From a virus: a stretch of DNA of 34,559 bases. The notes under the pieces are model-generated. The model had not been told where the DNA came from. It worked only from the letters and a program-made list of their open reading frames with translations, and made no database searches. Shown one piece after another: positions 20,836 to 34,559 of the stretch; position 1 is the stretch's first letter, and each line of letters opens with the position of its first letter. A program made the translations under genes and the position numbers. The stretch spans positions 1 to 34,559 of IMG/VR virus record IMGVR_UViG_3300010412_000452. One strand, 5' to 3'.

Positions 20836-22005
20836 TTGCCCACTGAGAGTCAGCTCCGCGACATCGCTGCGAAGCTGGGCGTCGATGCCGATCAGTTCAT
20901 CAAGGATCTGATGGGCAGTGTCCCATTCGAGGAGGAGAAGAAGGAGAAGGAGGTGATCGTCTTCGACGACAGCCTCGAAGTCCCCTTCCACAAGCTGCTC
21001 CGCCCCGGACCGTTCGCCCCCAACTGGTCGTTTCGTGACGAGTATGGTCGCCTGATCAAGAGCTTCCCCACCAAGAACGAAGCACTCGGTTGCTTGATGG
21101 ACAGGACGTGGTCGCACCATCTGGGTGGCGACATCGTCCACAAGATCTTCATCGAGGCCGACCCCGAGAATCCGTACGACACCGTCGGTGGTACGTATGA
21201 GCAGATCGAAGTGCTCAAGCACCACGCATCACTCGACACGAGCAAGCACGAAGACCCCGAGACAGAGGAGACCATCACAGTGACTGATCACATTCCGTCA
21301 GACGTTCTGGAGTTCGCTGATGAAGATGCCCTTCATCAGTGGGAGTTGGCCAATGCGGTCATCCCCCACTCCCGCCGCGTCCTGTTCTACGGCCCGCCCT
21401 CCACTGGCAAGACCTACTTCGCCAACACCGTGGGCGGCGTGACCAAGGACGACATCTACTCGGTCACCCTGACCGAGGAGACCAGCGCCGCCGAGATCCG
21501 TGGCCACTTCATCAACCGTGGATCCGACACGGTGTGGCACTACGGACCCGGGGCTCGAGCCTGGCTGGAGGGCAAGCGGTTCGTCATCAACGAGATCGAC
21601 CGTGCCAGTGCCGACGCACTCACCCTGCTGTACGCACTGCTCGACGATCCGATGTTCGCCAGCCTCACGCTGCCGAACGGTGAGACGATCCGCCCGGAGG
21701 AGGGCTTCGCCGTCGTGGCCACCATGAACGGCGTGCCCGAGGATCTGCCCGAGGCACTCCAGTCCAGGTTCCCCGTCAAGTTCGGTGTCAACAAGCCGAA
21801 CCCGGCTGCCATCGCCGCACTCGACAAGGACTTGCGCAAGCTGGCGTCCGGCCTGTCCATCAGGAGGGACGAGAACCGTCAGGATCTCCGTGCCTTCTTC
21901 GAGTTCCAGTCCCTTCGCAAGTTCGTGTCCGTGGATCTGGCCGGTGAGGCCGTGTTCGCAGACCAGTGGCCGAGCATCAAGGCAACCCTCACGCTGGGTA
22001 GCTGA
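20836..22005 (+). CDS. MoxR/CobS-like AAA+ ATPase
   Basis: 389 residues from a TTG start with AGAGGAG 7 nt upstream. Residues 1-150 are an N-terminal extension of unknown fold. The AAA+ module follows: Walker A GPPSTGKT (186-193), Walker B FVINEID (249-255), sensor-1 VVATMN (293-298) and an arginine-finger candidate in LQSRFP (about 313). NEID together with the GPGA-containing insert (WHYGPGARAWLEG) resembles the MoxR/CobS group of chaperone-like ATPases. These act with a VWA-domain partner to remodel or insert metal into target proteins. The VWA gene follows after 2 bases. The target in this phage is unknown; a cobalamin role is not implied, since no cobaltochelatase large subunit is nearby. 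Confidence 0.9.
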   Translation: MPTESQLRDIAAKLGVDADQFIKDLMGSVPFEEEKKEKEVIVFDDSLEVPFHKLLRPGPFAPNWSFRDEYGRLIKSFPTKNEALGCLMDRTWSHHLGGDIVHKIFIEADPENPYDTVGGTYEQIEVLKHHASLDTSKHEDPETEETITVTDHIPSDVLEFADEDALHQWELANAVIPHSRRVLFYGPPSTGKTYFANTVGGVTKDDIYSVTLTEETSAAEIRGHFINRGSDTVWHYGPGARAWLEGKRFVINEIDRASADALTLLYALLDDPMFASLTLPNGETIRPEEGFAVVATMNGVPEDLPEALQSRFPVKFGVNKPNPAAIAALDKDLRKLASGLSIRRDENRQDLRAFFEFQSLRKFVSVDLAGEAVFADQWPSIKATLTLGS

Positions 22006-22007
22006 TC

Positions 22008-23720
22008 ATGCGCACCGGCCCATCCTTCCATCCGGAAGGGCTGGATGGCAGAGAGTGGGAGTACCACGATGGCGTGATGCCCAAGCTCGACAAGCGAGGG
22101 CGCAAGTTCACCCATCTGGGTAAGATCCGTGGAGCCTGCCCGACCTGCGGCAAGGATCACACGATCATGCGTGAGCTGTCCAGCGTACGCGCTGCCAACC
22201 TCAAGCGACTGAAGCGTCACCCCTATCGGGATGTGTGCGCTCAGTTCATGGTTGAGAAGCTCATCGCCCAGAAGGATGACACCCTGTCTGCCACATGTGA
22301 TCCCGACATCGAGTTCCTCGCACAGATGCGCAGGTACACAGATGCCAGGGATCAGGTGGTGGTCAACCACAACCTGCGTTCAGCCATCAGCCCAGCAATC
22401 GCAGACATCCTCGACAACCCCTGGTTCGGCAAGCACCTCGTCTCTATCGGGCGTGCCGAATACGAGAAGAAGCACGGCAAGACGCCTCGCTTCAGGGGGA
22501 ACCACCTGGGACAGAAGTTGTTCGATGACTTCTTCATCCCATCCATCAAGGATGTCTTCGCCAAGACCAATCCCCATCTCAGTGAGGAGGTGATCGACGA
22601 AACAGTTCGCAAGTTCTGCGATCGACTGCCGCCAGAACTTCATCAGTTCCGCAACAAGTGGACGACCCTCGGTGCCTACCTGTACAATCAGGTCAGCCTG
22701 CCCTGGGGCGTCAGCGTTGATGGTGAGAACAAGGTCTTGGCACGAGAGGCCAACGAGCTCATGCTCTCCATCGACGATGCAGTCGAGACCATCGAGCCAG
22801 CACTTGCCTGGTTCGAGGCATTCATGGACACGCCGACCAAGGATCGTGGCCGACCGTCCGAAGGTACCACCGATGACGACGAGGATGATGACGGGGAATA
22901 CGAAGATGATGCGGACACCGCAGAGCGGCTGGCCGATGACATGCTTCGCAAGGATCCCCGTGAGATGGGCGATCGATTCCGCAAGCGCGGTACGCCCATG
23001 CCTCCCGTCAAGGATCCGGAACTGAAGGACAAGATCGAGACGATCAAGAAGGGTGAAGCCCAGGTCCGCTGGAATCAGATGGACATCGTCAAGCACTCCT
23101 TCACATCCCAGGCACCAGCCTGGAAGGTGCAGCGTGGCAAGAACAGAAGCCAGGAGGAGGGAGTGATCCCTCGCAGGTTCGAGCGTCTCGCCTCGGACCA
23201 GAGGATCTACACCCACAAGATCCGGGTGCCATCAGTCAGTGTGCTGATCGATGCATCCGGATCCATGGATGTCAACGCAGAAGACATCCGTCGCATCGTT
23301 GACATGCTTCCTGGTTCTACGATCGGTTCGTATGCTGGATGGGATCATGACCCCACCCTCACCAGAGTGGGCAAGCTCTACGTCATTGCCGAGCGTGGCA
23401 AGATGGTGAACCTCACCATCGACGACCACCTCCAGCCTTCTCTGCATGGCAATGGCGTCGACTACCCTGCCCTCCAGTGGCTGGCCGAACAGCCAGGCCC
23501 CAGGCTCTGGGTATCGGATGGTGGTGTCACCGTCTCTCGCAACTACGGTGCGGGCAACCTGCCATACAAGCAGTGTGTCGCACTCTGCGAACTGGCAGGC
23601 ATCGAGCGTGTGCACCACACGTACGACGCCATCGAACTGATCATCAAGCGCAAGCGGGAGTCTGACTGGAAACAGCCGAGACTTCCCGTCTACCGCAGGA
23701 ACTGGCGAGTCTATCGATGA
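22008..23720 (+). CDS. CobT-like protein with C-terminal VWA (MIDAS) domain
   Basis: 570 residues. The start lies 2 bases after the AAA+ stop. Near the N-terminus is CPTC (about residues 44-47), a possible half zinc site. A long helical middle is followed by a strongly acidic linker (TTDDDEDDDGEYEDD, about 286-300), typical of CobT-type proteins. The VWA domain starts near residue 405: SVLIDASGSMD carries the MIDAS motif DxSxS at 415-419, and a later acidic site is in VSDGG (D504). Such proteins use the metal-dependent VWA domain to bind substrates and present them to a MoxR/CobS ATPase. Its C-terminus (RRNWRVYR) is basic. The TGA forms an ATGA junction with the next gene. Confidence 0.88.
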   Translation: MRTGPSFHPEGLDGREWEYHDGVMPKLDKRGRKFTHLGKIRGACPTCGKDHTIMRELSSVRAANLKRLKRHPYRDVCAQFMVEKLIAQKDDTLSATCDPDIEFLAQMRRYTDARDQVVVNHNLRSAISPAIADILDNPWFGKHLVSIGRAEYEKKHGKTPRFRGNHLGQKLFDDFFIPSIKDVFAKTNPHLSEEVIDETVRKFCDRLPPELHQFRNKWTTLGAYLYNQVSLPWGVSVDGENKVLAREANELMLSIDDAVETIEPALAWFEAFMDTPTKDRGRPSEGTTDDDEDDDGEYEDDADTAERLADDMLRKDPREMGDRFRKRGTPMPPVKDPELKDKIETIKKGEAQVRWNQMDIVKHSFTSQAPAWKVQRGKNRSQEEGVIPRRFERLASDQRIYTHKIRVPSVSVLIDASGSMDVNAEDIRRIVDMLPGSTIGSYAGWDHDPTLTRVGKLYVIAERGKMVNLTIDDHLQPSLHGNGVDYPALQWLAEQPGPRLWVSDGGVTVSRNYGAGNLPYKQCVALCELAGIERVHHTYDAIELIIKRKRESDWKQPRLPVYRRNWRVYR

Positions 23721-25562: not shown

Positions 25563-26393
25563 ATGCATTCGCTGTGGCGAGCTTCGAGGTCACGGGGTCT
25601 GATCGGAACACCGATCAGTCTCCCCTGGCCACACATGGACAGGCTCGTCAACCTGCGTACCAAAGAGCTGGTCATCGTGGCGGGAGCACCGGGTGCAGGG
25701 AAGAGCGCACTGGCCATCGCACTGTCGATGGCAGTGGACTTCCCCGTGCTGTACATAGCGCAGGACTCCCCTGCCTCGGTTGCTTCCCGCATGATGGCGA
25801 ACGTGCTGAACCGTCCGGTTCGCACGGTACAGCGTGAGGTAGAGAGGAACCCCAAGGCCATCGAGATGGACATCAAGTCACGCATCCCATCCACCAAGCT
25901 GGTGCTTGCCACTGGCCCACACACCGTGGACATGGTGCGTGACGAGATCCTTGCGATGCGTGAGTGGCTGGGCATCAGCCCGCCGATGGTTGTCATCGAC
26001 AACCTGATCGACATGAAGAGTGAGAAGGGATCCTCCGCAGAGAACATCTTCTATTCGGATGTTCTCCTCAGCCTCAAGCAGGTTGCCATTGAGCTGGATA
26101 CCTGCATCGTCGTGCTGCACCACGTTGTGCGTGGTGACTTCTCTCACGACAGCAGCATGGGACGCAAGCGCTTGCGCCTGCGTGACCTGCTGTTCGCCGG
26201 GGAGAGGGAGGCACGGCATGTGTGGGGCGTGTGGAACGACGGGGACATGGGCCTGTTCCTGTCCGTGCTGAAGCAACAGGATGGCCCGGCCGACCCCTAC
26301 GGCACACTGAGTGTGCGGTTCCGGTGGGACACCAGCACCTTCAGGATGACTGAAGATGTGCTTGAGAGAGGAGACATAGGTGGCGAAGAGTAA
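25563..26393 (+). CDS. RecA/DnaB-fold ATPase, probable replicative helicase
   Basis: 276 residues. ATG 25563 directly follows the upstream TAG; there is no clear binding site, but the N-terminus (GLIGTPISLPWPHMDRLVNL) matches what precedes the ATP site in DnaB-type helicases, so I keep it. Walker A is GAPGAGKS (41-48) and Walker B MVVIDN (142-147); a conserved IVVLHHVVRG (182-191) follows, then a basic segment (GRKRLRLRDLL) and GEREARHVWGVWND. It lacks the DnaB N-terminal domain, which is common for phage helicases. It should form a hexamer on single-stranded DNA at the fork, with the primase genes that follow. A recombination ATPase is the alternative. Confidence 0.88.
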   Translation: MHSLWRASRSRGLIGTPISLPWPHMDRLVNLRTKELVIVAGAPGAGKSALAIALSMAVDFPVLYIAQDSPASVASRMMANVLNRPVRTVQREVERNPKAIEMDIKSRIPSTKLVLATGPHTVDMVRDEILAMREWLGISPPMVVIDNLIDMKSEKGSSAENIFYSDVLLSLKQVAIELDTCIVVLHHVVRGDFSHDSSMGRKRLRLRDLLFAGEREARHVWGVWNDGDMGLFLSVLKQQDGPADPYGTLSVRFRWDTSTFRMTEDVLERGDIGGEE

Positions 26394-26775: not shown

Positions 26776-27032
26776 ACTTCTACAGGGGCAACGTCACTGT
26801 CACCACACACCATGAGGATGGCGTGTGGGCAGGCGACATCGAGTCTGCCAAGGGGAAGATCATCAGCGCCTGGAAGGAAGAGTACGGCAAGTGCCTTGAG
26901 GAGTGGGGCTACGACCCGAGCGACGGGATCATCCATGTGCGCATCGATACCCTGACGCAAGAGGATCCGTACCTCGACTCCATCTTGGTAGAGGAGCATG
27001 AGGACGAGGATGTCGGTGGTGTTGTTTTCTAA
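26772..27032 (+). CDS. Small acidic protein of unknown function
   Basis: 86 residues, ATGA junction with the upstream gene. It looks like a compact alpha/beta fold (NFYRGNVTVTTHHEDG at the start, KIISAWKEEYGKCLEEW in the middle), ending in an acidic run (EEHEDEDVGG). It overlaps the primase zinc-finger gene. Function unknown. Confidence 0.75.
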   Translation: MNFYRGNVTVTTHHEDGVWAGDIESAKGKIISAWKEEYGKCLEEWGYDPSDGIIHVRIDTLTQEDPYLDSILVEEHEDEDVGGVVF

Positions 27033-27315
27033 TCCGCAGGGAGCACTGCGCCATGTGCTGGATGCGGGGGCTGTCCACTATCGGGACATAGCCGGATGGC
27101 AGTCGATCAGATGCGTGAACCGTGAAGCCCATTCGCACGGTGACCGCACCCCCTCCGCCTCCGTCAACCTGGGCATGGGCAGGTACAACTGCCATGCGTG
27201 CGGGCTGCACGGTGACGGGTATGACGTAGCGATGGCGGTGCACGGGCTGAGCGCCATCGATCTGGACAAGGGGATGGGCAACGGCAAGAGAGAGGAACCC
27301 ACATGGATTCTCTGA
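27010..27315 (+). CDS. CHC2 zinc-finger protein, primase DNA-binding half
   Basis: 101 residues from ATG 27010, chosen for its GAGGA upstream; ATG 26998 is also in frame but its AGGAG lies too close. The core is CVNREAHSHGDRTPSASV followed by YNCHACGLHGDGYDV: a Cys-His-Cys-Cys zinc site of the DnaG N-terminal (CHC2) type, with the conserved TPS and G-D motifs. In DnaG this ribbon reads the template. Here it stands as its own protein, while the catalytic Toprim domain is encoded separately at 27547, so primase is split. The gene ends 13 bases inside the WhiB gene. Confidence 0.88.
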   Translation: MSVVLFSNPQGALRHVLDAGAVHYRDIAGWQSIRCVNREAHSHGDRTPSASVNLGMGRYNCHACGLHGDGYDVAMAVHGLSAIDLDKGMGNGKREEPTWIL

Positions 27316-27689
27316 TCCCACGCCCCAGGCCACGGATCAACCAATCGGATGAGTTCTTCGTGGATGCAGCGTGCAATCCGAAGAACAACGACATGACGAC
27401 AGAGGAACTGTGGACGTACTTCTTCCCACAGGAAGAGAAGGACCGACACCTGTACCGCAAGGCATTGGAGATCTGCGCTGAGTGCCCGGTCATCCAGGAC
27501 TGCTTAGAGTACAGCTACTATCTGAACCTGGAGAAAGGAGTGTTCGGTGGTCAGACTTCAAAGCGTCGAGTCCAGTTCATCTTCCCCGCATGGGACAGGG
27601 CTGGATTCAGCAGCCAGCGAGTTCTTGTCGAGCAGGGGTATCACGACCAAGCTCGCAGAAAGATTCTCCCTGAGCGTCTGCCCCGATGA
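27303..27689 (+). CDS. WhiB-family iron-sulfur transcription regulator
   Basis: 128 residues, ATG 27303 with GAGAGGAA upstream. Four conserved cysteines, C24, C58, C61 and C67 (the last three as CAECPVIQDC), bind a 4Fe-4S cluster; GVFGG (79-83) is the WhiB turn that contacts the sigma factor, followed by SKRR. WhiB proteins occur only in Actinobacteria and their phages, which fixes the host group. They bind the principal sigma factor and redirect transcription; phage copies can act on host genes, for example in superinfection control. Unusually, residues about 83-128 are read in a second frame across the first 143 bases of the Toprim gene. The basic tail (ARRKILPERLPR) may contact DNA. Confidence 0.92.
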   Translation: MDSLIPRPRPRINQSDEFFVDAACNPKNNDMTTEELWTYFFPQEEKDRHLYRKALEICAECPVIQDCLEYSYYLNLEKGVFGGQTSKRRVQFIFPAWDRAGFSSQRVLVEQGYHDQARRKILPERLPR

Positions 27690-28173
27690 CGGGCCCCGGC
27701 CCGGGTGGCTGGAGATCCCATACCTGAACGTGTTCGGTAGCTGGGGTAGCAGATACCGCAACCTGCGTCCCGACTCGAAGAAGGACAGATACTGGAACCC
27801 GAGCGGCCAGGAGGTGCACCTCTACAACCCGCTGCACCATGGCCCACAGTCCGAAGTCATCGTGCTGTGTGAGGGTGAGTTCGACACGATGATCATGAAC
27901 TCACTGGGCTACCCGGCCGTTGGTGTGCCAGGTGTGGGGTCGGGCGCTTCGCTCAGGCGTGAGTGGATGCTGTTGTTCAAAGACGCACACATCATCATCG
28001 CATTCGATGGCGATGATCCCGGCCGCACTGCGGCGGAGAAGCTGAAGATGTACCTCGATTCGGAGGGCGTGAAGGCAGACATCCTGCACGTACCGGATAC
28101 ATTCGACATCAACGACTGGTATCTTGAGGATCCTGATGCGCTCAACGCAGCGATGGCCGAGCTTCTCGCATGA
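27547..28173 (+). CDS. Toprim-domain primase catalytic protein
   Basis: 208 residues from GTG 27547, which has AAAGGAG 6 nt upstream. ASEFLSSRGITTKLAERF (about 23-40) and LEIPYLNVFG match the segment before Toprim in DnaG. Toprim motifs: IVLCEGEFD with catalytic E109, and AFDGDDPGR with D154, D156 and D157. It makes RNA primers together with the separate CHC2 protein encoded 230 bases upstream. There is no helicase-interacting C-terminal domain. The first 15 residues (SSSSSP) look unconstrained, consistent with their lying over the end of the WhiB gene. Confidence 0.9.
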   Translation: MVRLQSVESSSSSPHGTGLDSAASEFLSSRGITTKLAERFSLSVCPDDGPRPGWLEIPYLNVFGSWGSRYRNLRPDSKKDRYWNPSGQEVHLYNPLHHGPQSEVIVLCEGEFDTMIMNSLGYPAVGVPGVGSGASLRREWMLLFKDAHIIIAFDGDDPGRTAAEKLKMYLDSEGVKADILHVPDTFDINDWYLEDPDALNAAMAELLA

Positions 28174-28535: not shown

Positions 28536-28786
28536 GTGAGCGGCGGTGGGAGGAACTGCTGTGGTGCGATGAGTGCGGTTACCACCACGACTCGGACGAG
28601 GGTATTCCAATGACCGACGCCGAGGTGCTGGCCGAGATGGGCGGGGAGCGGATGTGGGCCTGTGCCTGGTGGGACGACTCGGTGTGGAGCGATACCAAGT
28701 GCAACCCCCACAACCCAAGGGCGGGTAAGGGTTGTTCGGATCGTTGCGGTTGGGTGTGGGTCGTGAAGGAGGCCGACGATGAGTGA
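28517..28786 (+). CDS. Small Trp/Cys-rich protein, probable zinc binding
   Basis: 89 residues from ATG 28517 with GAAGGAG 8 nt upstream; it overlaps the preceding gene by 19 bases. CDECGYHH near residue 17, C49 in MWACAWW, and a C-terminal group (TKCNPHNP, GCSDRCGW) give enough Cys and His for one or two zinc sites. It is rich in Trp. Family unknown. It overlaps the next gene by 8 bases. Confidence 0.72.
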   Translation: MDTQQMSERRWEELLWCDECGYHHDSDEGIPMTDAEVLAEMGGERMWACAWWDDSVWSDTKCNPHNPRAGKGCSDRCGWVWVVKEADDE

Positions 28787-29135
28787 GCGATACACGGTTG
28801 AGAACCTGAACCCCCGGAGCAAGCCAGTCCAGTCACTGGTGTCTGCGTGCAAGAGGGCACTGGCTCTGCGCTCTCTACTCAATGACCTCAATGTGTACAT
28901 GTCGGTCGAAGAGATCAAGTCTGCACCACCATGGGCATGGGGTGCGCTGGATGGCAGGAGCCTGGTCGTCCGGACCAAGGAGATATGGGGCGAGAAGTAT
29001 CGGGAATGCCCCGACCTCAGGCCCGACAACTGGGTGTATCTGGTGGATCAGTGGGACAACGGATCACTGGATAGACAGATCCGTGACCTGGCTGCTAACC
29101 TACCGGAGACCGCACGCAACAAGCTGGACATCTAG
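28779..29135 (+). CDS. Small protein of unknown function
   Basis: 118 residues, ATG 28779 overlapping the upstream stop. Mixed alpha/beta sequence with a helix LVSACKRALALRSLLND (about 20-36) and APPWAWGALDGRSLVV in the middle; the C-terminus is helical and acidic. No motif recognised. Last gene of the replication operon before the candidate promoter and leader at 29.17 kb. Confidence 0.75.
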   Translation: MSERYTVENLNPRSKPVQSLVSACKRALALRSLLNDLNVYMSVEEIKSAPPWAWGALDGRSLVVRTKEIWGEKYRECPDLRPDNWVYLVDQWDNGSLDRQIRDLAANLPETARNKLDI

Positions 29136-29262: not shown

Positions 29263-30018
29263 ATGAGCGGGGTCAAGGTTCTCTTCTTCGACGTAGAGAC
29301 CACACCAAGACGGTCCTACATCTGGCACCCCAAGCAGGGATGGATCCCTCACCAGATGCTACAAGGCGAGAGCGCTCTCCTGTCATGGGCTGCGAAGTGG
29401 CGAGGCCAGAAGCGTGTCATGTCCGATGTGCTCACCATCGAAGAGGCACAGAAGCAGGACGACCACCGCATCATCCAATCGCTGGCAGATCTGGTACGCG
29501 AAGCTGACATCGTCATCGCCCACAACGTGGACAAGTTCGACATCAGGGTTCTCAACGGCAGGGTCGTCCTTGCCCAGACCGAACCCATCGGGAAGGTACA
29601 GACCATCGACACACTCAAGCTGAGTCAGAAGCACTTCGGCTTCGCCTACCACAAGCTGGACTATCTGGCCAAGATCTTCTTCGACGAACACAAGATCAAG
29701 ACGGAGTTCGATTGGTGGGCCAAGTGCATGGAGGGGGACGAGGCTTCACTGCGCAAGATGGTGAGGTACAACCGCAAGGACGTAGTCCTACTGGAGAGAG
29801 TGTTCGAGCACATCCTTCCCTACGTGACGGGCACGCCCAGGTTGTGGGACCCGGACAACAAGTGGCAGTGCGGGAACTGTGGGCACGAAGTGTTCCAACG
29901 TCGTGGATACCACCGCACCAAGGCAGCCACCTACGCCAAGGTGCAATGTCAGGGATGCTTCCGCTACAGTAGGCGACGTACCGCCGAGTCCAACGCAGGA
30001 GAGTACAGGCTTCTATGA
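29263..30018 (+). CDS. DEDDy-type 3'-5' exonuclease with C-terminal zinc ribbon
   Basis: 251 residues from ATG 29263; AAGGAG lies 5 nt upstream (an out-of-frame ATG at 29259 is nearby). RNase H-like exonuclease motifs: FFDVETTP (D10, E12), IAHNVDKFD (D90 or D93) and YNRKDVVLLE (Y169, D173), the YxxxD that defines DEDDy enzymes. After residue 195 a zinc ribbon is added: CGNC (203-206) and CQGC (229-232). Related proteins are common in actinophages and are predicted to trim single-stranded DNA or RNA. With no DNA polymerase in view it could be a stand-alone proofreading or processing nuclease. Two small genes follow with 4-base overlaps. Confidence 0.9.
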   Translation: MSGVKVLFFDVETTPRRSYIWHPKQGWIPHQMLQGESALLSWAAKWRGQKRVMSDVLTIEEAQKQDDHRIIQSLADLVREADIVIAHNVDKFDIRVLNGRVVLAQTEPIGKVQTIDTLKLSQKHFGFAYHKLDYLAKIFFDEHKIKTEFDWWAKCMEGDEASLRKMVRYNRKDVVLLERVFEHILPYVTGTPRLWDPDNKWQCGNCGHEVFQRRGYHRTKAATYAKVQCQGCFRYSRRRTAESNAGEYRLL

Positions 30019-30481: not shown

Positions 30482-30701
30482 CACAGTTGAGACCCTGCGT
30501 GAAGTGATCCTTGAGAACGAGCAGCTGCGTGGCAGCAACGCCACCCTGGGCCAGCTGCTGGCCGGGCTGCTCGCTCACGTTGGTGACCAGCAGATCCCCC
30601 GTAAGGTGGTCGAGGGGACCAACGGCCTGGTGAGCTTCGAGGTGAACGAAGAGTACATCTCGATCTCGCTCAGTAGTTCCCCGACCGAGCCCACTCCCTG
30701 A
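30474..30701 (+). CDS. Small protein with N-terminal coiled coil, last rightward gene
   Basis: 75 residues from ATG 30474, chosen for its GGAGGA binding site; an upstream in-frame ATG at 30381 would overlap the previous gene by 100 bases and is unlikely. VETLREVILENEQLRGSN (residues 4-21) looks like a short coiled coil; the second half is beta-like (VSFEVNEEYISISLS). It ends 32 bases inside the convergent tail-fibre gene. Confidence 0.72.
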   Translation: MSDTVETLREVILENEQLRGSNATLGQLLAGLLAHVGDQQIPRKVVEGTNGLVSFEVNEEYISISLSSSPTEPTP

Positions 30702-33700
30702 AGGCTTCGAGGAACCCATTACTCACCGTACCTGCCAGCTCATTCACGGCACCCAGTACCTCTGTTCTGGTTGCGCCCATAGCCTGGAGCGCCCCCACCG
30801 GATCAAGATCGGTGCCGCTCAGGGCACGCAGGGCACCAGCGAAGTCCTTGGGGGTGACATGACCACGAGCCTCAAGCATGGCAGCGAGGATGGCGAGGAT
30901 GTCCTTAAGCTCCACCTCGACCTGGCCCTCGACGAAGACAGCCCATGACACCAATGCCCGCCTATTCGTCTGGCCGTCGGGTACCTCAAACTCTGACCAT
31001 GAGACTTGCGCTCGTCTGGGCGCGGTTGGCACCTCGTACTCGGACCATGAGAGCTGTGCTCGACGGGGTCCGTCATCTGTCTCTAGTTCTGCGAAGCTCA
31101 CCTGTGAGCGTCTGGGAGCTGTTGGTACCTCCAGCTCCGACCAGGAGATGGCAGCACGACGAGCGGCGTCGGGCACTTCGTACTCAGCGAAGGAGATCGT
31201 TCCTCTACGCGCTGCTGTCGGAATCTCAAGCTCGGCCCACGCTACCTGTGCCCTACGAGGTGGAATGTCCGGAGTCTCCACCTCAGTAAAGCTGACCTGC
31301 GCCCTGCGTGGTGCGTCCCCCACCTCCATCTCGGTGAACGAAACCTGCCCCCGTCTCGGTGGATCGCCCGTCTCGAACTCTGCGAAGGTGATCTGACCAC
31401 GACGCGGTGCATCCCCCGTCTCCAACTCAGCCCATGCAACCTGGCCTCGCCTCTCTCCCAGGGATGGTACCTCGAACTCCGCCCACGCCACAGCACCACG
31501 GCGTGGTGCGTCACCCGTCTCAAGTTCGGTGAAGCTGACCTGACCTCGACGTGGGGCAGTGGGCACCTCCGTCTCGGCAAAGCTGATGAGTGCGCGGCGT
31601 GGTGCGTCCTGGAACTCCACCTCTGCCCACGCCACCTGAGCGCGCCTACCACCGTCGGTGGTCTCAAGCTCACTGAATGACACCTGTGCCCGACGGGGTG
31701 GGTTGTCCGTCTCGAAGACGGCCCAGCTCACCTGTCCCCTACGCCCACCGTCACCTGTCTCCAGCTCAGCCCAGCTGACCTGAGATCTGCGTGCCCCATT
31801 GGGTACCTCCATCTCAGCCCATGCAATCTGCCCACGCCTGGGTGGATCTGCTACTTCCAGCTCTGCGAATGACACCTGTCCCCTGCGTGGTGCGGTAGGC
31901 ACTTCGAGTTCGGCAAAGGACACCTGGCTCCTGCGGGGAGCGGTGGGGAACTCTATCTCTGCCCATGACACCTGGCCTCGCCTGCCAGCATTGCCTGTTT
32001 CTAGCTCCGCAAACGAAACCTGGGATCTGCGAGGGGCGGAGGGAACCTCGAACTCAGCAAAGCTGACGCGTGATCTTCGATCCGTGCTGCCCAACGTCCA
32101 GGTGGCACCCGCAGCGGCGGTCCACACCTTGCCCGTCGTGTCGCCGTCGCCGGTGAGCCACATGACGGCGGCGTCCCACACCTGGCGGTACCGCCAGTTG
32201 AAGTTGGTGTACGCACCGTCGAGGCCCTGGAACAGAACCCGCTTGTTCTCGGCGGTGTCCGACGCCTGGAGGGTGGCACCCGAGTTGTAGGCGACGACGA
32301 TCCTGTTGGATGTACCGCCCGCCGAGATGACCACATTCGCACCCGACGGCAGGTTGCCGTCCGCCGTGTAGCGGTAGTCGGTCCCCGAGTCGTACATGGT
32401 CAGACCCGTCCCCGAGAGCATGGCCGCTATCGGGTGGGTCGAGTCGGTGACATCGAAGGTGCTGCCCGTCCCCGTCGCCCCGCCTGCGCTGGTCAGGTTG
32501 TGGTCATCCCAGGCGGCGTGTTCATGGTGAAGGACGGGCGACGCCGAGTCCTTGTACTTGGTGGTGAGGACGGTGGAGGTACACGACTCGGCAATGACGA
32601 CCAGGTCGTAGCCGATACCTTGAAGCGGCGGAGCGGTAGAGGTGAAAGCGTTGATCGTTGCCCCGCTCGTAGCGAAGGCGTCCTCCTGCCGGGTCCAAGT
32701 GCCGCTGGCAGCGGTGAAGTAGTTGGCTTGGGGGGCGGAGGCGTCGATCCCTACGAAGGCGATTGCCAGAGTTGGTTCGACGCCTCCCGTGGACAAGTCA
32801 AGAGGGATGGGGGACACCGTGTCGGGCGCGCCAGAGTTGTGGGCGATGAAGGTGCCACCCCTGACGGCGATGATCGCCCCCGCCTGCTGGTTGGAGGTGG
32901 ACGACTGCCAGGTGTACGAGGCAGGTTCAGACGCTGTTGCCGTCTTCTTCCACGAATGCCAGTTGCCGCCGCCGCCGTCGGAGGTGATCGACTGGACCAC
33001 TGACCACCCTGTCGGGGGTGTGACGGTCGGGGCCACGCCGTCCTCGGTGATGATCTGTGCGTACAGGACATCGCCCTCTTGCACACCCGTTGGCTTGTCG
33101 ATAGTGAGGTCGGTGCTGGCAGTCTCAATGGCATTGGATGTCGAATCGACCACAGAGGCCGCACCCGACCATGCAGCAACCGTGACGCCGCCAACTGTTG
33201 CTCCTAATGCGCCGAGCCACCTAGTCGCAACACCTTCCACCGCCTCGTCAGAGATGTAGGTGACCGTGTATCCGTGGTCTTCCAGCCAGCCCTTCAGGAT
33301 GGCGTCGCCCGCCGTCGGGGTGGTGGAATCCGCCACGACGAGGAGGGCGGTGGACGAGGCAGCGCCCTGGTTGTCGGCGGTGAAGTTGGCGTTAGCGACA
33401 ACCGTGCCGCCGATGCCGTTCCGCAGCTGCATCTTGTAGATGCGCCCGTCGAGGGCTTCGGATGGTTCGTCGTCCCGGTTGCCGACGGAGAGGGCGGCGG
33501 TGCCGTCGTTGATGGTGGTGGCTGCCGCACCCGTGACCGATGTCCCGTGCTGGGTCCATGACACCGATGCGGGGTCGGTCGTAACGGGGTCGTCCGAGTA
33601 GTAGAAGGTGACCTCGTAGACGGACGACCCGTTGGAAACGTCGAGGGTGGCCCGATACCAGCGACCGGCCGACTGGGCGAGGCCGGTGCTGGAGGTGGCG

Positions 33701-34168
33701 GTGCGGGTGGTGCCACCCGATTCCCGCCAGATGAACTGGAGGGCGGTGGTCGACGCTTGCCGCTTCAGCACCCAGGCACCGGCGGCGACCGACGGGTCAC
33801 CCTGCGCCACCAGGGTCTCGGCGGTAGACCCGGTCGGGCCGTCCATCTCGGTGAACACTCGAACGTCGAGGTCGGTCGAACCCGTCGGGAACGAAGGGTG
33901 ATCGGGGGTGGAGACGTAGGCGGTGGAGGTGCCGTTGAAGTCGTAGTAGCCGGGGGGAGGCGCGTCCCCCGTCTCTAGCTCTGCAAAGCTGAGCTGTGCC
34001 CTACGGCCAGCGTTGCCCGTCTCCAGTTCGGCAAACGAAACCCGAGCCCGGCGGGGGGCATTGGGGGACTCCAGCTCAGCAAATGAAACCTGACCACGCC
34101 GGTCGGTAGATGCCGCCGTGTAGACCCCGTTGACCTCGATGGCCGCAACTTGGAGCTTGGAGGGTCCC
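30670..34168 (-). CDS. Tail fibre or adhesin: 16-residue repeats, LamG-like and ThuA-like domains (main frame)
   Basis: Coding sequence to stop TGA at 30672-30670. Upstream of about 34,165 this frame becomes an Arg/Pro-rich shadow, while good sequence continues in another frame (next entry), so the gene is broken or frameshifted and has no start of its own here. From the N-terminal side: three 16-residue repeats (34101-33958); a LamG/concanavalin-like beta-sandwich (about 33957-33370, YYDFNG to MQLRNG); the first half of a ThuA/flavodoxin-like domain (LLVVADS, ILKGWLEDHGYTV, about 33345-33235); an inserted beta domain (about 33234-32620, with TPPTGW and TATASEPASYTW); the second half (YDLVVIAES to VMWLTG, about 32618-32130); 24 more repeats (32079-30925); then a helical C-terminus (KDILAILAAMLEARG). 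LamG-type domains bind glycans, which fits host recognition. Proposed as a late virion adhesin; inference. Confidence 0.82.
30925..32079 (-). repeat. 24 tandem 48-bp (16-residue) repeats in the tail-fibre gene
   Basis: Consensus RRxQVSFAELETGDAP, with F/W at position 7 and E, V or T alternation later. Units are diverged at the DNA level but almost constant in length; single-residue insertions occur in a few (for example after SLGE and DIPP). The span of about 1155 bases equals 24 units. Confidence 0.95.
33958..34101 (-). repeat. Three further copies of the same 48-bp repeat, upstream of the LamG-like domain
   Basis: RRGQVSFAELESPNAP, RRARVSFAELETGNAG and RRAQLSFAELETGDAP: exactly 144 bases. 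The array resumes after the domain block at 32079, so the LamG and ThuA-like domains lie inside one repeat series. Confidence 0.95.
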
Positions 34169-34559
34169 CGTGTCCCAGCCGCCCGCCTTGCTCTTCGTCC
34201 ACGAGATGTGGAGGTAGGCCCCGTCCCACGACGCCTTGTTGGCAGTCGTGTTGACGTAGGTGGCGTTGACCTGCCGCACCCCTGCGGTGAAGGTGCCGCC
34301 CGTCCAGTTGGCAGCCTCCTGGGCAGCGGTCGAGGACGCACCGGCCAGGAAGGTCTCCACGTTGTCGGCGGTGGTGATGCCGACCTGCACCTGAATGGTG
34401 TCGTTCGACAGGACGCCAGTGGACTGCAGGTACACCCGAATCTCCACCGAATCCATCGTCTGGAAATCGGCGGGCATATCCGGCAGCACCATCCACAACT
34501 CGCAGTTGGCCGAGTTGTAGAGACCCTCCACCCAGGAGGTGGTGGACGGGGTGGTGTCG
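34166..34559 (-). CDS. N-terminal part of the tail-fibre/adhesin gene, out of frame and incomplete at right edge
   Basis: The frame is open from the right edge (no start in the window). It encodes a good beta-type sequence (VEIRVYLQSTGVLSND, VQVGITTADNVETF, ASWDGAYLHISWTKSK) with a predicted TNF- or carbohydrate-binding-like jelly-roll flavour, ending GGWDTG. At 34166-34169 (CCCC on the plus strand, GGGG in the message) the meaningful sequence moves to the frame of the 30670 gene: removing one G gives GGWDTG-PSKLQVAAIEVNG without interruption. The original frame runs on as an unlikely sequence to 34076. Either a one-base assembly error, a real mutation or a programmed shift. Confidence 0.7.

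Follow-up and report, generated by a model that had tools for sequence, protein, structure and literature searches.

The replication region of an uncultured actinophage raises the question of why a gene for a WhiB-family regulator lies between the genes for the two halves of a DnaG-type primase, and whether that gene is what split the primase. The stretch of DNA analyzed here, hereafter the window, is the whole 34,559-nucleotide record IMGVR_UViG_3300010412_000452.

Gene layout of the primase locus

ORF calls placed three plus-strand genes within positions 27010 to 28173 of the window, in the order CHC2, WhiB, and Toprim. The first gene (27010..27315) encodes a 101-amino-acid CHC2 zinc-ribbon protein corresponding to the N-terminal primase half; its start, ATG 27010, is preceded by GAGGACGAGG, and an alternative ATG at 26998 would give 105 amino acids. 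The second (27303..27689) encodes a 128-amino-acid WhiB-like (Wbl) protein with four cysteines and a GVFGG turn, and AGAGAGG stands 7 nt upstream of its ATG at 27303. The third (27547..28173) starts at GTG 27547 and encodes the catalytic half, a 208-amino-acid Toprim protein. A scan of the sequence and its starts found a Shine-Dalgarno-like AAAGGAG (27534..27540, plus strand) 6 nt ahead of this GTG, within the codons for the WhiB GVFGG turn. Each of the three genes thus has its own plausible ribosome-binding site. The initial annotation described WhiB as lying between the primase genes and overlapping both. The plus-strand order and the overlaps held, with the correction that CHC2 and WhiB share only 13 nt, whereas WhiB and Toprim share 143 nt (27547..27689, plus strand), Toprim being in the +1 frame relative to WhiB. 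Since the AAAGGAG site supports the start at GTG 27547, this long overlap is probably real.

The surrounding genes form a replication module. Upstream on the plus strand is a DnaB-like replicative helicase gene (25563..26393; phrog_243, 1.5e-33; PF03796, 3.2e-10). Downstream, also on the plus strand, are a gene for a conserved 118-amino-acid protein with an NLNPRS motif and no assigned function (28779..29135), found by ORF comparison in the related loci L003, L006, and L146 as well, and a DNA polymerase exonuclease subunit-like gene (29263..30018; phrog_403, 4.6e-63) that ends the conserved module. Elsewhere in the window, positions 20836 to 23720 encode an AAA_5 ATPase (MoxR/CobS-like) followed by a 570-amino-acid protein with a VWA-like stretch, SVLIDASGSMD, and no Pfam match of its own. 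A 1,223-amino-acid ORF on the minus strand (30670 to 34341) contains many RRxQVSFAELE-type repeats of about 16 amino acids; its only Pfam match, a weak one to DUF503, is probably repeat-derived.

Separate CHC2 and Toprim proteins, as initially annotated, were borne out by distinct ORFs, by family matches for each, and by retention of key residues. The CHC2 protein matched PF01807 (E = 1.4e-5; 25.2 bits, just above the 24.9 cut-off) and the 133-position PHROGs family phrog_360, "DNA primase" (6e-10), and a profile built from its alignment matched the zinc domain of Bacillus stearothermophilus primase (1d0q, 5e-8) among solved structures. Alignments identified C39, H45 or H47, C65, and C68 (numbered from ATG 26998) as candidate zinc ligands, giving the three cysteines and one histidine of a zinc ribbon. 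The Toprim protein matched PF13155, Toprim_2 (E = 4.8e-10), in Pfam and phrog_849, "DNA primase" (3.7e-26), in PHROGs, and its alignment profile matched DnaG RNA-polymerase domains (5vaz, 2.9e-16). The catalytic glutamate (E109 in EGEFD) and the DxD pair (D154/D156 in DGDD) are retained. The label Toprim is narrower than the protein, which also takes in a portion of the core's N-terminal lobe.

The 34,559-base contig gave no further match to CHC2, Toprim_2, or WhiB, and no sign of the full-length primase that the initial annotation had named as a refuting result; the record is classed as linear and could be incomplete, so another primase may conceivably lie outside it. The zinc-ribbon and Toprim core domains are those of T4 gp61 and bacterial DnaG, but those enzymes are single chains with a flexible linker, whereas the window has separate ORFs. 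Nor did Pfam detect a C-terminal helicase-binding domain in the 208-amino-acid Toprim protein, which stops just past the core. The primase of the window is thus not a full bacterial DnaG, which is a single chain with such a domain.

The two-gene primase in other actinophages

A tblastn search of GenBank phages with the Toprim protein returned 971 records at E ≤ 1e-3 and 1,081 at E ≤ 0.01; most came from phages of Mycobacterium and Propionibacterium/Cutibacterium. A minority were fused primase/helicases; typically, the matching records had two neighboring genes named DNA primase. Two-gene primases without WhiB occur in GenBank phages of Mycobacterium, Gordonia, Streptomyces, and Cutibacterium, and the two genes adjoin and overlap in SarFire, Jeeves, Stella, Ibantik, Remus, and PHL141N00. 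In Gordonia phage Remus they are annotated as "DNA primase, N-term" and "C-term". The CHC2 half is missing from the GenBank annotation of two phages: in Streptomyces phage Yosif (positions 2528-2767 of its locus, L125) a hypothetical gene on the opposite strand is called instead, and in Thermobifida phage P318 (positions 2203-2643 of L122) only the Toprim half is named.

Single-sequence scans of IMG/VR with Toprim or WhiB returned no relative, and alignments were required. A survey covered loci from IMG/VR and GenBank, many of which are close relatives of one another. The halves were adjacent in 108 loci, with no WhiB between them, and Toprim was in the +1 frame relative to CHC2 in all but one, L038, where it lies inside a long ORF. 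Something lay between the halves in six loci: WhiB in the window, L003, and L146, another ORF in L164 and L165, and a gap in L109. A further 76 loci had no CHC2 match by the model, and those inspected carry Toprim within long ORFs. A scan of genome contigs yielded just four distant matches to CHC2, and the arrangement was not seen in any cellular or prophage sequence there.

The window shares several features with the split actinophage primase (phrog_360 plus phrog_849), exemplified by Remus gp67/gp66, Mycobacterium phage SarFire gp53/gp52, and Propionibacterium phage PHL141N00 gp31/gp30. Separate CHC2 and Toprim genes lie near a DnaB-like helicase gene, and Toprim is in the +1 frame of the gene immediately upstream. 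In those phages, however, the halves overlap each other with nothing between them, usually by about 150-190 nt (e.g., L005:2706-3552 and L091:3998-4850), whereas in the window the CHC2 protein is shorter (101 amino acids) and the overlapping partner of Toprim is WhiB. Because the WhiB gene intervenes, the window departs from the usual adjacent, overlapping layout and is a variant of the split form.

On sequence comparison, the primase split is evidently ancestral to the group, and the two-gene state is its normal condition. The initial annotation had raised the alternative that the primase was once a single gene, which WhiB broke in two in this phage. The CHC2-WhiB-Toprim order has the appearance expected of such an event, and fused primases do occur in other phages, but 107 adjacent split loci and L006, a member of the same clade as the window, have separate halves without WhiB, the pattern that the annotation itself had named as refuting. 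The clade of the window is also nearest to other split primases rather than to a WhiB-free single-gene primase, on deep branches that are poorly supported. We consider interruption extremely unlikely.

The long overlap in adjacent split loci shows signs of constraint. Across 939 non-independent pairs of such loci with 60-93% Toprim identity, a descriptive comparison made with no formal test, four-fold sites of the Toprim frame differed by 0.365 inside the CHC2 overlap vs 0.576 in the next 300 nt, and amino acids by 0.384 vs 0.196. The lower four-fold change fits an overlap constrained in the CHC2 frame, pointing to dual coding.

The constant frame relation could also mean that programmed +1 frameshifting joins the upstream frame to the Toprim frame, as a CHC2-Toprim product in the relatives and a WhiB-Toprim product in the window. 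The +1 relation in 107 of the 108 adjacent loci speaks for this, as does the end of the L146 WhiB gene, CCC TGA, a shift-capable sequence. Yet the relatives share no slip site: the last CHC2 codon and the stop vary widely over 84 distinct contexts, none with CCC TGA or CTT TGA, and a +1 shift at the CHC2 stop was rejected on these grounds. Most Toprim genes, moreover, have their own start, many of them preceded by AAGGAG, and the WhiB gene of the window ends in CCC CGA TGA. We give frameshifting hardly any weight.

A clade with WhiB between the primase halves

A tree of concatenated helicase, CHC2, and Toprim proteins placed the window with L002, L003, L006, and L146 in one clade with a support of 100. 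WhiB lies between the halves in the window, L003, and L146, always directly upstream of Toprim. The order in L146 is helicase, hypothetical, CHC2, WhiB, and Toprim, and L003 has an additional hypothetical gene between CHC2 and WhiB. Gene-order comparison, which the initial annotation had proposed, therefore shows that the arrangement recurs and is not a one-off. The CHC2 proteins of the window, L003, and L146 end in TWIL, DWLL, and TWLF, respectively, and Toprim is in the +1 frame of WhiB in all three, with overlaps of 143, 17, and 23 nt. That constant relation is not significant alone, because it may go back to one inherited event. The L003 and L146 WhiB proteins, which matched PF02467 at 3.4e-10 and 2.7e-15, respectively, carry N-terminal extensions absent from the window protein, and the cysteines, glycines, and basic residues of WhiB are conserved across the three lineages.

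The remaining two members of the clade differ in what they show. The halves of L006 are adjacent, overlapping by 47 nt, and its 46-kb contig showed no WhiB; the L002 contig ends in the helicase gene, so that the primase region falls outside it. Since the CHC2-WhiB-Toprim order is kept in L003 and L146, divergent relatives with 34-45% identical primase proteins, it looks old and clade-specific; the primase proteins of the three lineages with WhiB between the halves share only 34-46% identity. L006 groups with L003 in the Toprim tree (94) and with L146 in the concatenated tree (59), the branch order within the clade being poorly supported. The distribution may reflect one gain of WhiB and a loss in L006, or two or three gains; short and divergent as they are, the WhiB sequences do not distinguish these. 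The CHC2-WhiB-Toprim order is real, a new arrangement of known parts that a few divergent phages of one small clade retain.

The WhiB-like protein and its place in the module

WhiB genes are common in actinophages. They serve as the usual marker gene for the freshwater ones (PMC6802176, PMC10202952), and in cluster EK phages whiB is found close to primase genes (PMC8612146). A WhiB gene stood about 1.4-3.3 kb upstream of CHC2 in 16 surveyed loci and immediately before the helicase gene in L138; in the wider group, WhiB often precedes an uninterrupted split primase by 1.4-6 kb. All 13 wider split-primase records searched had a WhiB gene, five of which (L146 and four others) were chosen knowing this and eight not. 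As WhiB is this common in the surveyed loci and wider records, its presence in a replication region is ordinary, and its position between the halves is the special part. Marky, Footloose, L011, and L111 were considered as further cases and rejected, their WhiB genes being located outside the primase halves.

The WhiB protein of the window matched PF02467 in Pfam (9.5e-11), phrog_472 in PHROGs (2.5e-12), and the solved structures of WhiB4, WhiB3, and WhiB1 (WhiB4 7f7n, 2e-4). It is divergent, with about 30-39% identity to phage WhiBs across about half its length, the family domain. Like phage Wbl regulators such as WhiBTM4 of mycobacteriophage TM4, it has four cysteines in the family spacing (C..CxxCxxxxxC; C24, C58, C61, and C67 in the alignment) and a glycine-rich turn followed by basic residues. 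The turn reads GVFGGQTSKRR and differs from the G[IV]WGG of those proteins in that phenylalanine replaces tryptophan; the three glycines, which are needed for DNA binding by WhiB1 (PMC3390391), are present. The protein also differs from phage Wbl regulators in lying between primase genes and in its C terminus. The family domain stops near residue 92, so the ~36 residues beyond it come from Toprim codons read out of frame. By analogy, the window WhiB is most likely an iron-sulfur protein that modulates host transcription, as proposed for phage Wbl proteins including WhiBTM4; the TM4 protein inhibits expression of host whiB2 (PMC8612146).

The reading that we prefer, with a probability of about 0.7, is a split primase acting in trans on the helicase, with WhiB as a co-expressed modulator of host transcription at a permissive junction. 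The replication module of this uncultured actinophage would encode a two-protein DnaG-type primase in which the CHC2 protein recognizes the priming site and the Toprim protein synthesizes the primer, the two meeting on the DnaB-like helicase with no peptide link. Precedents in T4 gp61 and DnaG make such a meeting plausible: the zinc domain and core of T4 gp61 are connected through a flexible loop and bind to different dimers of the helicase (PMC10359460), and Corn et al. (2005), going by its title in the reference list of PMC6163395, reported primase (DnaG) subunits acting in trans. Because no simple frameshift could join its halves, the window is a natural argument for assembly in trans. In this clade, a WhiB-family gene would have settled between halves that were already split; it would use its own translation start and probably belong to the same early operon. 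Its position would give co-expression with the primase, and direct action on the primase is unnecessary to explain the placement.

WhiB might instead be a working partner of the primase, its translation coupled with that of Toprim and its iron-sulfur cluster tuning primase dosage or the assembly or activity of the primosome, so that the redox or NO state of the host would set replication timing. The initial annotation had likewise suggested that the regulator may couple iron-sulfur/redox state or host transcription to replication timing. In all three cases WhiB immediately precedes Toprim, which is read in its +1 frame, and this placement persists over large divergence; both are consistent with such a role. 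However, L006 has a two-gene primase and no WhiB on its 46-kb contig, 107 other split loci have no WhiB at this place, and many phages have WhiB upstream instead. We know of no Wbl protein that acts on replication proteins, and we regard a partnership as highly unlikely.

Alternatively, insertion at the junction might simply be neutral, and WhiB might be a passenger that does little. The location of WhiB varies across the wider group, and the junction holds other insertions, namely an HNH-like ORF in L164 and L165, the extra gene in L003, and the gap in L109. The conserved cysteines, glycines, and basic residues in three divergent lineages argue, on the contrary, for a functional protein, and we judge a passenger role unlikely. 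The HNH-like ORF (192 amino acids; L164:2418-2996, the same in L165) has a start, MLNEKQRISLTDAAERYSSNL, that resembles the start of the Toprim gene, VLNEKQRTLLTDAANRYSESL, as though part of the latter had been duplicated when the ORF was inserted.

Some observations weigh against the preferred reading of a co-expressed WhiB at a permissive junction. The window WhiB is divergent and has GVFGG in place of G[IV]WGG, and WhiB is kept between the halves in lineages of such low primase identity, so the position itself may be selected. The locus suggests that the primase halves can dispense both with a covalent link and with an overlapping junction shared by their genes, and that a whole regulator gene is tolerated between them. 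A clade of uncultured actinophages with a host-type regulator inside the primase locus is a natural set for asking whether phage Wbl proteins act on replication.
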